A stretch of DNA of 23,468 nt from a virus. The notes below the pieces were generated by a model, which was not told the DNA's origin, ran no database searches, and worked only from the letters and a program-made list of their open reading frames with translations. Position numbers and translations under genes: made by a program. Positions within the stretch are counted from its first letter, which is position 1. Every line of letters begins with the position of its first letter. Below, one piece after another: positions 17,641-22,748 of the stretch. Location: positions 1 through 23,468 of the IMG/VR virus record IMGVR_UViG_3300029448_000453; one strand, given 5' to 3'.

Positions 17641-18504
17641 ATGTCATTAGCCGCACTAAAGAAGCAATCCGATTTCTCATCACTTATTGATGAGTACAAC
17701 AAACAAACAACCCCTCAGAACGAAACTAAGTCGTTTGACGATGAAAGAATCTGGAAACCAGAACTTGATAAGTCAGGTAATGGTTATGCCGTGATTCGGT
17801 TTCTTCCTGCTCCAGAAGGAGAAGATGTACCATGGCAGAGAATGTTCACACATTCTTTTCAAGGGCCAGGAGGCTGGTACATTGAGAATTCCCTAACCAC
17901 TATCAACAAGAAAGATCCAGTTGGAGATGTGAATCGCACACTTTGGAATACTGGTTCTGAGGCTGATAAAGAGACAGCTCGTAGACAGAAACGTAAGTTG
18001 TCATACTTTACCAACATCTATGTTGTTGCAGATCCTAAACATCCAGAGAATGAAGGAAAAGTTTTCCTTTATAAGTTTGGTAAGAAGATCTTTGATAAGA
18101 TCATGGAGGCAATGCAACCTCAGTTCGATGATGAAAAGGCCATCAATCCATTTGATTTGTGGAAGGGTGCAAACTTCAAGTTGAAGATTCGTAAGGTAGA
18201 CGGATTCTGGAACTACGACAAGTCTGAGTTTGAAGCGGTAACACAACTGTTACCTACAGATGAAGAACTTGAAAAGGTTTATGGTTCAGAATATCCATTG
18301 AAACCATTTCATGATGATTCTAACTTTAAGTCTTATTCAGAGTTGAAGGAGAAGATGGAACGTGTACTAGGTGAGGCAGTAGATAATCGTACTGCTGAAC
18401 AAGTTGCATCTGATATGGGGGAAGTACCTTTTGATGGTGGAAAACCAATCGAAGGAAAACCATCTGATACTATGGACTACTTTGAAAAGTTGGCAACAGC
18501 TTAA
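17641..18504 (+). CDS. 32: Single-stranded DNA-binding protein, T4 gp32-like
   Basis: A 287-residue protein coating single-stranded DNA in replication, recombination and repair. The N-terminal LAALKKQSD region corresponds to the basic cooperativity segment. The core fold is seen in GYAVIRFLPAPEGEDVPW, RKLSYFTNIYVVADPKHPEN, GKVFLYKFGKKIFDKI and WKGANFKLKIRKVDGFWNYD, all close to T4 gp32. There is no Cys anywhere in the protein. Where T4 has its zinc ligands (CPVCQ), this has KKDPVGDVN (90-98), though H71 remains. The C-terminus (PSDTMDYFEKLATA) is less acidic than in T4. A strong AAGGAG precedes the ATG. The stop shares TTAA with the oppositely oriented tape measure gene. Confidence 0.93.
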   Translation: MSLAALKKQSDFSSLIDEYNKQTTPQNETKSFDDERIWKPELDKSGNGYAVIRFLPAPEGEDVPWQRMFTHSFQGPGGWYIENSLTTINKKDPVGDVNRTLWNTGSEADKETARRQKRKLSYFTNIYVVADPKHPENEGKVFLYKFGKKIFDKIMEAMQPQFDDEKAINPFDLWKGANFKLKIRKVDGFWNYDKSEFEAVTQLLPTDEELEKVYGSEYPLKPFHDDSNFKSYSELKEKMERVLGEAVDNRTAEQVASDMGEVPFDGGKPIEGKPSDTMDYFEKLATA

Positions 18505-20621
18505 CCATTTAAGAAGTATTTGTTATGCATTGGGTTTACAGAACTTGATGCAACAGCCATAGTGGTAGAACCACTACTAACATTAGAAGTTGTTGGAGCA
18601 TTTATTATCATAGGTGCTCCACTGCTTCCCATTCCCCCCTCTTTTTCCATATCTGGTAAAGGTTTTACTAATTCGGGGCCGTGAAGAACTGCGGGTACTG
18701 TTTTTCCAGCTGGTATAAATCCCCCTCTGTTTAAACTTGCACCATATTCATTTAAAAGATTTTTTAATTTTTCTCGTTCTACATCTTCTAAATTTCCTGT
18801 GTTATCTTGATAAGCTGCAACTAATCCTGACATTAATTTCTTTTGGTCTGATTCAGAACCTTCAGCAAGCATGGCTTTAAGTTTAGTTTCATCAACAGAA
18901 TTCATTCCTGCATCATCAATAAATGCACCTTTTTCAAATGCTTTTTCTGAAGCTTCATCACCACTAGAACCAAAAAGGAAATTATATAATGCAGAAGGCA
19001 TTATCTTTTTTGCTAAAGCTCCAAAATCTATATTGAATAAACCTTCTATCCAGTTAAATAATGGATCAAGAACATCTTCTTTCAACCATTTTGCTAAATC
19101 GAAATCTGCACTAATTGCATCATCTTCCATACCAAATAAATTTTTTCCAATCCAATTAATAGCTGGTTTTATTGCAATGTCAAACAACCAACCAAAAATA
19201 TCTGCAGCTTTACCAAATAGTCCTTTAATACCTTCTAATGCTAATTTGGGATCTAATTTAAAAAGTCCTTCAAATATTTTCATATAATCACCAAAAATAT
19301 CTTTTAGAAATCCAGTAACAGAAAATTTCATGAAGTCTTTACCTTCAATTTCTTTTTCATCCATACCAAATAAACCCATTACTTTTTTAATCAACCATTT
19401 GATTGAATCTTCTGCAAGTTGTATCAAATCAAATACGAAGAAGTCTACTATTGCTTTTATTCCTGCACTCAACCCTGCAACAGTTTTATCCCATAGAGAA
19501 CCTTCTTCTGATTCAAATGCGGCCATAAATGCAACTACTGCATCATATGCGGCCATTATCCATCCAATTGGCCCGAAGAATTTTAACATCTTAGCACCTA
19601 TAGACCCTAAGAATTTTTGAATACCTACTATAACTTTATTACTTTTTATTGTTTGTAGAGCTTTCATAATTTTTCCACCTTCATCTGCACTTCCAAAGAA
19701 ACTCCCTATCCATCTAAAGAATTTGGCAATAGATGAATCTCCACCCATCCAGGCTGTAAATTTTCCTGCAATATTACCCTTTATGACACTCAAATTTTTT
19801 GCTATTGACCCCTCTGCACCAAATATACCTTTAATCCATGTAATCCATGATTGAATTTTACTTTGAGGGCCAAACCACTTTGTAAATGTTGTACTTTCTT
19901 TTATAGCTTTAAGGGATTTAGCAATAGTTCCATCAAGACCAAACGCAGCTGCAATCCATGACATAACACCTCTTATTGCACCGCCAGCTAGAAACATTGA
20001 TCTAAAACCAAGACCTAATAGAAATTTCCAAAGAGTTCCAACCGGCCCCATAAATCCAAACCATCCTTTTATTAAATTCATAACGGCTTTAAACAACCAC
20101 AATCCACTTCCTATTCTAGTTAAAACTACAAATATTCCATCTAGTATATCTGTTACAGTTGTCCATTCTTCTTTTATTTTTCCATACCATTCTTTTACTT
20201 TTTCTACAGTTGATTCTAAATCTGCTGTTGATAACCAATCAAAAAGTGCCCAAAGAGCTGCAAGACCTAATCCTTTCATTAATAAATCTAATATATTTCC
20301 TGCAAAGTCTGAAACTGCTTTTATTTTTGCTTTTCCAAAATCGACAGCTTTAGATGCCGCAACTTTTGCAGCTTTTGCAGCTCGTTCTTGAAATTTCTTT
20401 GCCCAACTAAAATGACCCAGTAATCCTTTAAAAACACTATTTTGTCCAGCTGCATTTTTTTTATTCCAGTTATGATGTTTTCCAACATCTGACCTTTGTT
20501 TTCTAACAGCTTTGACTACTTCTTGAGTTTCATTTTTAATTTCTTCATCACCAGCATTACTAGTTTTTAACTGTTCTAATACTGCTTGTAAAGTACTCTC
20601 TTGACTTGGTTGATCAGCCAT
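18501..20621 (-). CDS. Tail tape measure protein (gp29-like role)
   Basis: A 706-residue protein, helical and hydrophobic in the middle, that would set tail length and be threaded inside the tail tube. Residues 1-115 are charged helices. Hydrophobic segments recur from 110 to 420 (LLMKGLGLAALWALFDWL; GWFGFMGPVGTLWKFLLGLG). Near the C-terminus GGFIPAGKTVPAVLHGPELV (633-652) is the Gly-rich HGPEL signature common in tape measures, followed by a Ser/Thr/Ala-rich end. About 40-residue repeats occupy 219-340. By the rough rule of 0.15 nm per residue, 706 residues suggest a tail near 105 nm. AGGA precedes the ATG, which overlaps the end of the short -1-frame reading frame, as in G/GT-tape measure clusters. 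Confidence 0.85.
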   Translation of the reverse strand: MADQPSQESTLQAVLEQLKTSNAGDEEIKNETQEVVKAVRKQRSDVGKHHNWNKKNAAGQNSVFKGLLGHFSWAKKFQERAAKAAKVAASKAVDFGKAKIKAVSDFAGNILDLLMKGLGLAALWALFDWLSTADLESTVEKVKEWYGKIKEEWTTVTDILDGIFVVLTRIGSGLWLFKAVMNLIKGWFGFMGPVGTLWKFLLGLGFRSMFLAGGAIRGVMSWIAAAFGLDGTIAKSLKAIKESTTFTKWFGPQSKIQSWITWIKGIFGAEGSIAKNLSVIKGNIAGKFTAWMGGDSSIAKFFRWIGSFFGSADEGGKIMKALQTIKSNKVIVGIQKFLGSIGAKMLKFFGPIGWIMAAYDAVVAFMAAFESEEGSLWDKTVAGLSAGIKAIVDFFVFDLIQLAEDSIKWLIKKVMGLFGMDEKEIEGKDFMKFSVTGFLKDIFGDYMKIFEGLFKLDPKLALEGIKGLFGKAADIFGWLFDIAIKPAINWIGKNLFGMEDDAISADFDLAKWLKEDVLDPLFNWIEGLFNIDFGALAKKIMPSALYNFLFGSSGDEASEKAFEKGAFIDDAGMNSVDETKLKAMLAEGSESDQKKLMSGLVAAYQDNTGNLEDVEREKLKNLLNEYGASLNRGGFIPAGKTVPAVLHGPELVKPLPDMEKEGGMGSSGAPMIINAPTTSNVSSGSTTMAVASSSVNPMHNKYFLNG

Positions 20622-20808
20622 GTTTCCTGTTTTGTTCTTTTATTCTTTGGTTTTCTTCTTTAATAAAATTAACTAATTTATCAACGTATATATCCCTTTC
20701 CCAAGGCAACATATTTTCAACTTCTGTTAAACTCCATTTGTGATGCTGTATCATAGAAAATAAAGTTGAATAATATACTTCCAGATTTATATGAGAAAGG
20801 GCAATTAA
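20614..20808 (-). CDS. Predicted -1 frameshift extension of gp26 (gp51/GT-like tail assembly chaperone part)
   Basis: This is the -1 reading frame that opens at the slip site before the gp26 stop and runs 64 codons without interruption to a TGA at 20616-20614. It encodes LIALSHINLEVYYSTLFS, then MIQHHKWSLTEVENMLPWER, then DIYVDKLVNFIKEENQRIKE and a short basic end. If translated alone it could only start at the ATG at 20754 (46 residues), but no Shine-Dalgarno stands before that ATG (TTTATTTTCT). The helical, charged product and its position between gp26 and the tape measure match the T part of lambda-type G/GT chaperones, and in T4 gene 51 follows gene 26. The frame and slip site are seen directly; expression as a fusion is inference. 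Confidence 0.6.
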   Translation of the reverse strand, partial: LIALSHINLEVYYSTLFSMIQHHKWSLTEVENMLPWERDIYVDKLVNFIKEENQRIKEQNRKHG

Positions 20809-21524
20809 AAAAAATCATTCATACCAGATAATGTTATCGTTGATTTTACCCCTGTCTTTGGATTAGTTATTTCTACCTCATGTTTTAAACTAGGCATTGT
20901 TTCAAAAAACTTTTGCACTTTTTCAAATTGTTGATGACTTAAACTTTCTAAAAATGTCATTTTATCTTTCATTGTATAATCCATAGCATCAAAAGTTTCT
21001 TCACCTTGCCATATTTGATAAAGACTATTAGCTATCATTTCAAATAGTCTGTCTGCATCTTTTTTATTACCTTTAGATTGTGTAGCATGACCAATAGTAT
21101 CAATAGATGGGTACATCATTAGAATACCAATATTTGGTTCTTCAGATAATTGTATTCTAGCATCATGTGTTTCATCCATTTCAACATTAACTTTAGTCAA
21201 ATCTACTTCAATATCAACTTGTGTTTTTTTATCATCTGGACAAGTTACTTTTAATTTAGCAATTTCCCCTACGGACTTTGCCCTTATGTTTAAGAAAATA
21301 TATTCCATATCAAATAAGGGTAGTTTATCAAGTTCTATTTTCCCTTTGCAACAATTTTCTATAATAGTTTTAATTGCTCTATATGTTGCATCTTCTGTTC
21401 CTGTTTCTTGTGCAATTAATAAAAGTTTTTCTTCTTTTACAAGAAAAGGTCTGTATGTAATTTCCTCATCAGTTGAGGGAACATTTAGCCGATATTCTGG
21501 CGTATTAATTATTGGTAAAGTCAT
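20805..21524 (-). CDS. 26: T4 gp26-like baseplate hub / tail assembly protein
   Basis: A 239-residue soluble, acidic protein with the layout of the T4 baseplate gp26 family. The N-terminal segment IINTPEYRLNVPSTDEEITY leads to YRPFLVKEEKLLLIA, followed by IKTIIENCCKGKIELDKLPL and FDMEYIFLNIRAKSVGEIAK. Next come VTCPDDKKTQVDIEVDL and a helical C-terminal half (LFEMIANSLYQIW; LESLSHQQFEKVQKFFETMP), then a beta hairpin ending LSGMNDFF. It is annotated as a hub subunit in T4, but its position between the tail-tube protein and the tape measure is that of a tail assembly chaperone. The stop is immediately preceded by a slippery T run. The ribosome site before its ATG is weak (GTGAG). Confidence 0.85.
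   Translation of the reverse strand: MTLPIINTPEYRLNVPSTDEEITYRPFLVKEEKLLLIAQETGTEDATYRAIKTIIENCCKGKIELDKLPLFDMEYIFLNIRAKSVGEIAKLKVTCPDDKKTQVDIEVDLTKVNVEMDETHDARIQLSEEPNIGILMMYPSIDTIGHATQSKGNKKDADRLFEMIANSLYQIWQGEETFDAMDYTMKDKMTFLESLSHQQFEKVQKFFETMPSLKHEVEITNPKTGVKSTITLSGMNDFF
20808..20814 (-). other. T-TTT-TTT slippery heptamer before gp26 stop
   Basis: On the minus strand the gp26 end reads GAT TTT TTT TAA, with a run of eight T (20814-20807). T TTT TTT is a canonical X-XXY-YYZ heptamer permitting -1 slippage of both tRNAs, after which reading continues TTA ATT GCC. The same run could also cause RNA polymerase slippage. No obvious downstream hairpin is visible by eye. Confidence 0.6.
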
Positions 21525-21551: not shown

Positions 21552-22748
21552 TTAACCAAGTAAATTTGAACCCCTTGATAAAGGACTCGTATTTATTCCT
21601 TGATTCACGGCACCTGACAATGGCCCTGAAAGTTCTGGTGGTAAATCCTCAATAAATGGAAATCCATCTTTTTCATTTCTAAATTCTCCAATCGCAAGAT
21701 TGACTTGACTACGATTTCCAAGATTACCCATTTTGAACGGATTCCATTTCCTATATGACCATGTAACATCAAATGTTGCAATAGAATTAGATGCATCATG
21801 TCCAAGATCAATAGAACCTACAATAGATGGAAAACATTCAAAAATTCTTACTCCATAATTGTCTCTAAAATTAACTTTTGGTATTTGATATGCAGCTTGA
21901 TCTTTAGCATCTCTGGTATCTTGTCCTGTCAATTCATCAAATTTACTTGTTGCCGTTGAAATACCATTACTAAGTGTTTGTGCCCATCCATCATCTCCTT
22001 TAGTTTTTACACCGGCACCACCTTGTGCTACAGTTGTACGAGTATGTACATCAAATTCAGATGTATACTCATTATAGAAATTAAAGTTACCAGTTAAATC
22101 ATTGTAGATAAGTTTTTGCCATGCATCAAAATAATTTTTGATATGCATCGTACCATCACAATAAAATGTAGTAGTTATTGCACCATATTGGACTGATTGG
22201 GGATATGCATATGGAGCTCCATATTGTCTAGGTAAGGCCGTCGTGATATTTTTTTCAGGTATGGTAACTTTACTACAATAGAGATTCATTTTTTGTTCAT
22301 CTCTTTTTAATTTTTCATGTCTTGGATTACCATCATTATGCATACCTGAGGCAGCTGCATTGGCTTGTTTGTATCTTTCTAAAATTTGTCCTTTAGTGGA
22401 GTTTTGCATAATATGAGTTTTCCAATCTAAACTACCAAATTTAACTTGACTAGTATTTGTTCCACTAGGTTTAGGTTTATCCCATCTTCCTGCTCCTTTT
22501 TCCATAGTCGATTGGTCAATACCTACTGGATGATTAAATGTACATTTAAAATTGACAGGCATGGTGAAACCTTCTCCCATACCAACAACTGTTCGTATGG
22601 TCTGGACATCCCCCATACCATCTACTGTTTTAGGTCGTTTATCTTCTAGAATTCCAATTTCTCTAAGAATTCCCTGGCCTCTTTGTTTACTGATGCCAGT
22701 ACGAATGTCCTTATTTCCTATTTTTACACCTTTTCTAAATAATGCCAT
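21552..22748 (-). CDS. Baseplate tail-tube protein, gp48/gp54-like
   Basis: A 398-residue protein with a phage tail-tube fold as in T4 gp19, gp48 and gp54. Recognisable pieces are NLYCSKVTIPEKNI (about 150-163), FYCDGTMHIKNYFDAWQKLI followed by YNEYTSEFDV, and VRIFECFPSIVGSIDLGHD with ATFDVTWSYRKWNP near 325-340. The last resembles the T4 gp54 end (ITTFDVTFAYR). T4 gp48 and gp54 form the first tube rings on the hub, where tube polymerisation begins. I cannot separate gp48 from gp54 by eye. It follows the 195-residue protein by eight bases, with AAGGAA overlapping the upstream stop as ribosome site. Confidence 0.75.
   Translation of the reverse strand: MALFRKGVKIGNKDIRTGISKQRGQGILREIGILEDKRPKTVDGMGDVQTIRTVVGMGEGFTMPVNFKCTFNHPVGIDQSTMEKGAGRWDKPKPSGTNTSQVKFGSLDWKTHIMQNSTKGQILERYKQANAAASGMHNDGNPRHEKLKRDEQKMNLYCSKVTIPEKNITTALPRQYGAPYAYPQSVQYGAITTTFYCDGTMHIKNYFDAWQKLIYNDLTGNFNFYNEYTSEFDVHTRTTVAQGGAGVKTKGDDGWAQTLSNGISTATSKFDELTGQDTRDAKDQAAYQIPKVNFRDNYGVRIFECFPSIVGSIDLGHDASNSIATFDVTWSYRKWNPFKMGNLGNRSQVNLAIGEFRNEKDGFPFIEDLPPELSGPLSGAVNQGINTSPLSRGSNLLG

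Follow-up and report, generated by a model that had tools for sequence, protein, structure and literature searches.

Phage lambda makes its tail assembly chaperone (TAC) in two forms, a short G and a long GT, by shifting to the -1 frame close to the end of a gene that lies between the tail tube and tape measure genes. According to a 2016 review (PMC5009743), G and GT cover the tape measure protein while the T domain recruits tube subunits, and frameshifting of the G-T kind is widely conserved "except T4". Similarly, phage P2 produces E and E+E' by a -1 slip (at T-TTT-TTG), with a short second-frame domain and the tape measure gene next. The TAC genes 26 and 51 of T4-like phages were reportedly the subject of Vladimirov, Gautam and Davidson (2022, Virology 566:9-15).

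In the PRFect paper (PMC10885494), Vladimirov et al. 2022 are cited as having shown for some T4-like phages that, in place of a frameshift, there is one short gene and a second, longer fusion gene. The initial annotation of the DNA studied here had suggested that a fused product would recast gp26 and gp51 as chaperones; this recasting is not new, since the PRFect paper cites these authors for T4-like TAC genes. The paper on phage Adele (PMC12846349) cites them for poly-T slippery sequences in T4-like TAC-N genes, and the slip described below is of an already known sort. As portrayed there, the TACs of Adele and of the Vandenendeviridae / Andersonviridae have a conserved poly-T -1 site, an uninterrupted -1 frame and a second part misannotated as a gene of its own, all as in our locus, but they belong to other phage families and their motif is given as GTTTTT. 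Frameshifted TACs, slip sites of this sort in T4-like phages and T4's arrangement of two genes have already been described, and our window, i.e., the whole stretch of DNA analyzed (23,468 nucleotides, IMG/VR record IMGVR_UViG_3300029448_000453), adds a well-supported further case.

Compared with the T4-like genes 26/51, the window has the same PF12322 G domain family and the same T-like extension. However, T4 spreads the two forms over two genes (one for G, one for a G+T fusion), whereas the window has one gene and a predicted slip. The locus resembles that of lambda in the predicted -1 frameshift near the gene end, its place between the tail tube gene and a probable tape measure gene, and the predicted short and long forms, and that of P2 in the predicted -1 slip, the short second-frame domain and the neighboring gene, here a probable tape measure gene. 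Despite this, profile comparisons detected no sequence similarity of the T domain to lambda T and no significant similarity to the single P2 E' sequence used, although FHWPPSEL..MS..EL is loosely similar by eye to P2 E'.

The gp26 locus in the window

The features of the locus are as follows.

21552..22748, minus strand: gene for the tail tube protein, upstream of gp26 (PHROG 45, E=2.5e-27)
20805..21524, minus strand: gp26, candidate short chaperone form (G-like), 239 aa (PF12322 T4_baseplate, PHROG 150)
20814-20808, minus strand: slippery heptamer T-TTT-TTT, X XXY YYZ in the gp26 frame
20814-20807, minus strand: T8 run
20807-20805, minus strand: gp26 0-frame stop TAA, with zero codons between heptamer and stop
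20808-20614, minus strand: -1 frame extension, T-like domain (mini-gp51), 64 codons plus stop (PHROG 634)
20754..20752, minus strand: first ATG of the -1 frame, no ribosome site before it, unlikely to be the main start
20616-20614, minus strand: extension stop codon, overlapping the beginning of the gene that follows (ATG 20621)
18501..20621, minus strand: 706-aa gene, probable tape measure protein (position, C-terminal motif, weak similarity)

The gp26 gene ends GAT TTT TTT TAA. After a slip, the -1 frame translates as LIALSHINLEVYYSTLFS-M(20754)IQHHKW...RKHG*, and the extension in full, as read from the slip to the stop at 20616-20614, is LIALSHINLEVYYSTLFSMIQHHKWSLTEVENMLPWERDIYVDKLVNFIKEENQRIKEQNRKHG. 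The gene order tail tube - gp26 - extension - large gene speaks for a chaperone locus of the G/GT type. The initial annotation had claimed a T-TTT-TTT at the gp26 end, a -1 frame open for 64 codons into the next gene, 18 stop-free codons before ATG 20754, no ribosome site at this ATG and a fused reading of about 303 residues. All of this was borne out: the heptamer stands directly before TAA, the 18 codons are all sense, an AGGA Shine-Dalgarno (SD) sequence precedes the downstream gene while none precedes ATG 20754, and the coding capacity of 239 + 64 predicts a fusion of 303 residues. Nevertheless, because the window has 34% GC and its genes hold 49 in-frame slippery heptamers as chance background, the window taken alone is weak evidence for a programmed slip.

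Conservation of the slip site and of the -1 frame

We compared 91 loci, namely the window, 80 IMG/VR contigs and 10 annotated phages (S-PM2, S-ShM2, ACG-2014d, Mosig, Melnitz-1, phiM12, Vibrio D527, Moby, AS-zj and pf16). In this set, picked as heptamer-bearing (Vibrio D533, among the annotated phages first fetched, lacked the heptamer), all 91 loci had T-TTT-TTC or T-TTT-TTT in register, together with a -1 frame that stayed open into the extension. Stops between slip and extension, which the initial annotation had proposed to look for in relatives, were found in 0/91. The gp26 stop itself floats, lying 0 (18 loci), 1 (56), 2 (1) or 8 (16) codons downstream of the heptamer. The codon before the two phenylalanines (FF) ended in T in 91/91 loci and the first F was TTT in 91/91, compared to 56.7 and 66.6 expected from each gene's usage. 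To control for redundancy, one sequence was kept per 60%-identity cluster. All 30 resulting representatives had a codon ending in T before FF (17.8 expected, p about 10^-7) and TTT as first F (20.4 expected, p about 10^-6), and the chance of 18 stop-free codons across all 30 is about 10^-14. More canonical heptamers were present outside the 91 loci, in Vibrio PG216, CZ01, Bakedbeans and Synechococcus S-N03. Judged by sequence, this comparative conservation is decisive for an origin other than chance.

The same fusion could be made by straight reading if RNA polymerase slipped on the T8 run and gave some mRNAs with U9. Eight consecutive T's, found in the window and 13 other loci, can promote this, and recognizable ribosomal stimulators are absent from the window, where an SD-like motif upstream of the heptamer and a downstream RNA structure were looked for and neither was found. 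However, the commonest slip sequence in the relatives, carried by most of them, is six T's followed by C (TTTTTTC), a poor polymerase slip site, and the strict X XXY YYZ register is kept. Furthermore, SD-like and downstream RNA elements in the relatives favor ribosomes. At the level of the group, with the kinship of the sequences ignored, anti-SD binding in the eight codons before the slip was -5.58 kcal/mol versus -4.56 kcal/mol in synonymous controls, a value as low as that observed being reached in 0/100 control replicates, and SD-like 4-mers were concentrated 7-11 nt upstream of the heptamer. By the same group-level measure, RNA folding in 60-nt windows was near background along gp26 itself and had its peak 6 nt past the heptamer, where z averaged -2.0 and was below -2 in 42%. 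These predicted elements match known -1 stimulators. In the window, the stop directly after the heptamer may help slipping; among the loci, no significant difference indicated a trade-off between an immediate stop and the other stimulators. Overall, we consider polymerase slippage clearly improbable.

Even less likely, in our view very improbable, is that gp51 is a separate protein of about 46 residues whose translation begins at ATG 20754, perhaps because ribosomes reinitiate once past the gp26 stop, with the openness upstream being incidental. An ATG near this place, at codon 19-20 after the slip, does occur in about half of the loci, and gp51 is annotated as its own gene in most records examined. 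However, no SD is present at the ATG, an SD-like 4-mer precedes the first ATG in only 5/91 loci, and the position of this ATG is not conserved: it varies from 2 to 33 codons among the 91 loci, the ATG being missing or distant in those outside the half just mentioned. The -1 codons upstream, open in 91/91, are instead under purifying selection at the protein level. Indeed, in related pairs, pN/pS was 0.25 before the ATG and 0.20 after it, changes before the ATG fell mostly in third positions of the -1 frame, and residues L9 (95%), L16 (91%) and F17 (99%) of the extension, all preceding the ATG, were conserved. Since selected and conserved codons precede an ATG of variable position, separate initiation fails to explain the pattern. 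In addition, PHROG 634 ("baseplate hub assembly catalyst") matched the extension from residue 2 (E=1.5e-26), so that homology starts before the ATG, and the T4 counterpart is fused. The extension is also present in AS-zj and ACG-2014d, although no gp51 gene is annotated there.

A wrong T-run length from sequencing or assembly, which would make gp26 and the extension one ORF or otherwise framed, is practically negligible: homopolymers are error-prone, and a Moby-like contig reads T5 (L095:3248-3253) where a 99%-identical relative has T6, but dozens of isolates and metagenomes, independent of one another, share the register, mostly as TTTTTTC. In that contig the slip site is broken with no compensation, and its T5 is probably a homopolymer-length sequencing error. 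The expectation of the initial annotation that the T run be unbroken thus held for the register, kept in 91/91 loci, with this contig as the blemish.

Predicted chaperone forms and the downstream gene

The gp26 protein matched PF12322 with 211.9 bits against a curated cut-off of 24.5 (E=1.2e-62). Its AlphaFold2 model had a pLDDT of 92.6, and the extension was modeled as three helices (pLDDT 89). The highest-probability PDB fold match of the gp26 model was the HK97 tail chaperone 2OB9, a weak one (prob 0.47, E=2), and the modeled likeness to the HK97 TAC fold is suggestive. A sequence search of the PDB with gp26 returned no match, nor did Foldseek give a significant match for the T domain in BFVD. 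Pfam families considered for the T domain, including DUF6760, were below threshold and inconsistent.

What the sequences show directly is the slip site, a -1 frame both open and under selection, and the domains encoded. From these we infer that the slip occurs, at a certain rate, and that its products serve as a chaperone. Very probably, then, the locus encodes a G/GT-type TAC in two forms made by the slip, and the comparative tests across the 91 loci support this reading, which the initial annotation had put forward. Read from coding capacity, gp26 would be G and gp26 plus extension would be GT, the two forms sharing the G part. Most ribosomes would end at the gp26 stop and yield the 239-residue short form. 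A minority would slip one base back at T-TTT-TTT, with the P- and A-site Phe-tRNAs re-pairing with UUU, and would read the -1 frame to give a 303-residue GT carrying the T-like domain with its three modeled helices. If lambda is a guide, the tape measure protein would be coated by many copies of G and few of GT, tail tube subunits would be recruited through the T-like domain, and both G and GT would depart before tail completion.

The 706-aa protein encoded downstream carries the C-terminal motif GGFIPAGKTVPAVLHGPELV. It had no match in Pfam, in PHROGs or by tblastn of the phage collection, and it is weakly similar to its Melnitz and phiM12 counterparts. The counterparts in Vibrio D527 and phiM12 matched tape measure families (E=1e-6 and 2e-5, respectively). 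The gene is probably the tape measure gene; this assignment, made in the initial annotation, is plausible even though the protein itself is unmatched in sequence searches. Its C-terminal GGFIPAGKTVPAVLHGPELVKP motif resembles the tail end of tape measure proteins. In S-PM2, the gene after gp51 (L082:2437-5940, minus strand) encodes an ADP-ribosyltransferase-like domain (PF01129, E=1.3e-5) and also a phage tail lysozyme domain (PF18013, E=7e-25). Cyanophage proteins at the tape measure position therefore look unrelated.

Slip, duplication and fusion in T4-like phages

Each frameshifting phage searched had exactly one PF12322 copy, and T4, Aeromonas phage 31, Acinetobacter PhT2-v2 and RB43 had two. 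The initial annotation had noted that gp26 and gp51 are treated as separate genes in T4. Two genes they are, but they are divergent neighbors, so that no slip can join them, and gp51 is already a fusion. Indeed, residues 1-201 of T4 gp51 matched PF12322 (E=3.9e-52), and its C terminus matched PHROG 634 and the extension of the window (E=1e-23; hhalign E=1.3e-4); gp51 is therefore a one-ORF G+T and gp26 a lone G. T4 gp51 is required yet absent from the particle (PMC3004832). In the other two-copy phages, the PF12322 genes are divergent as in T4 (Aeromonas 31 and PhT2-v2) or in tandem on the same strand with an 8-nt overlap, as in RB43 (L113:1801-3094), where the gp51-type (G+T) gene and the second PF12322 gene stand in the reverse of the order seen in slip phages.

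Taken together, these sequences suggest that T4 swapped the frameshift for a duplication of the gp26-like domain. In our tree, the gp51-type domains (100/99) and the single-copy gp26 proteins (98/95) each formed a clade of their own. Because this tree is unrooted and has long branches, we only infer the order of events, slip first and duplication later. The exchange probably took place within the Straboviridae, since AS-zj and the KVP40-type PG216 and CZ01, all members of that family, retain the slip site.

The canonical heptamer was lost in two distant relatives outside the 91 loci, Vibrio D533 (CTTTTCAAG) and Pseudomonas Cygsa01 (CATTTTCACC). Bakedbeans, a sister phage of this group, has the full heptamer, and a scan of viral contigs with D533 gp26 found no relatives. 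In both phages the gp26/T junction is a TAATG stop-start overlap (D533, L088:4680-4780; Cygsa01, L119:2290-2320), possibly a third way to express the T domain. A tentative reading, which we hold to be unlikely, is that the T4-like superfamily has three interchangeable routes to the two forms: a poly-T slip (marine phages, KVP40- and AS-zj-type), duplication plus fusion (T4, 44RR and RB43 types) and the heptamer-less state (D533 and Cygsa01), using a TAATG restart or a weak one-tRNA slip. If so, the T domain in the heptamer-less state would be able to work unlinked to G.

In many cyanophage and marine phage records, gp26 is labeled a baseplate hub subunit and gp51 a catalyst of hub assembly; in some, the second part is overlooked. 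The correct reading would be that gp26 and gp51 are one frameshifted tail chaperone gene, which also points to the gene that follows as the probable tape measure gene wherever no family can be recognized in it. Overall, the locus would represent a clear case in which a gene duplication apparently took over from a frameshift in the lineage leading to T4.
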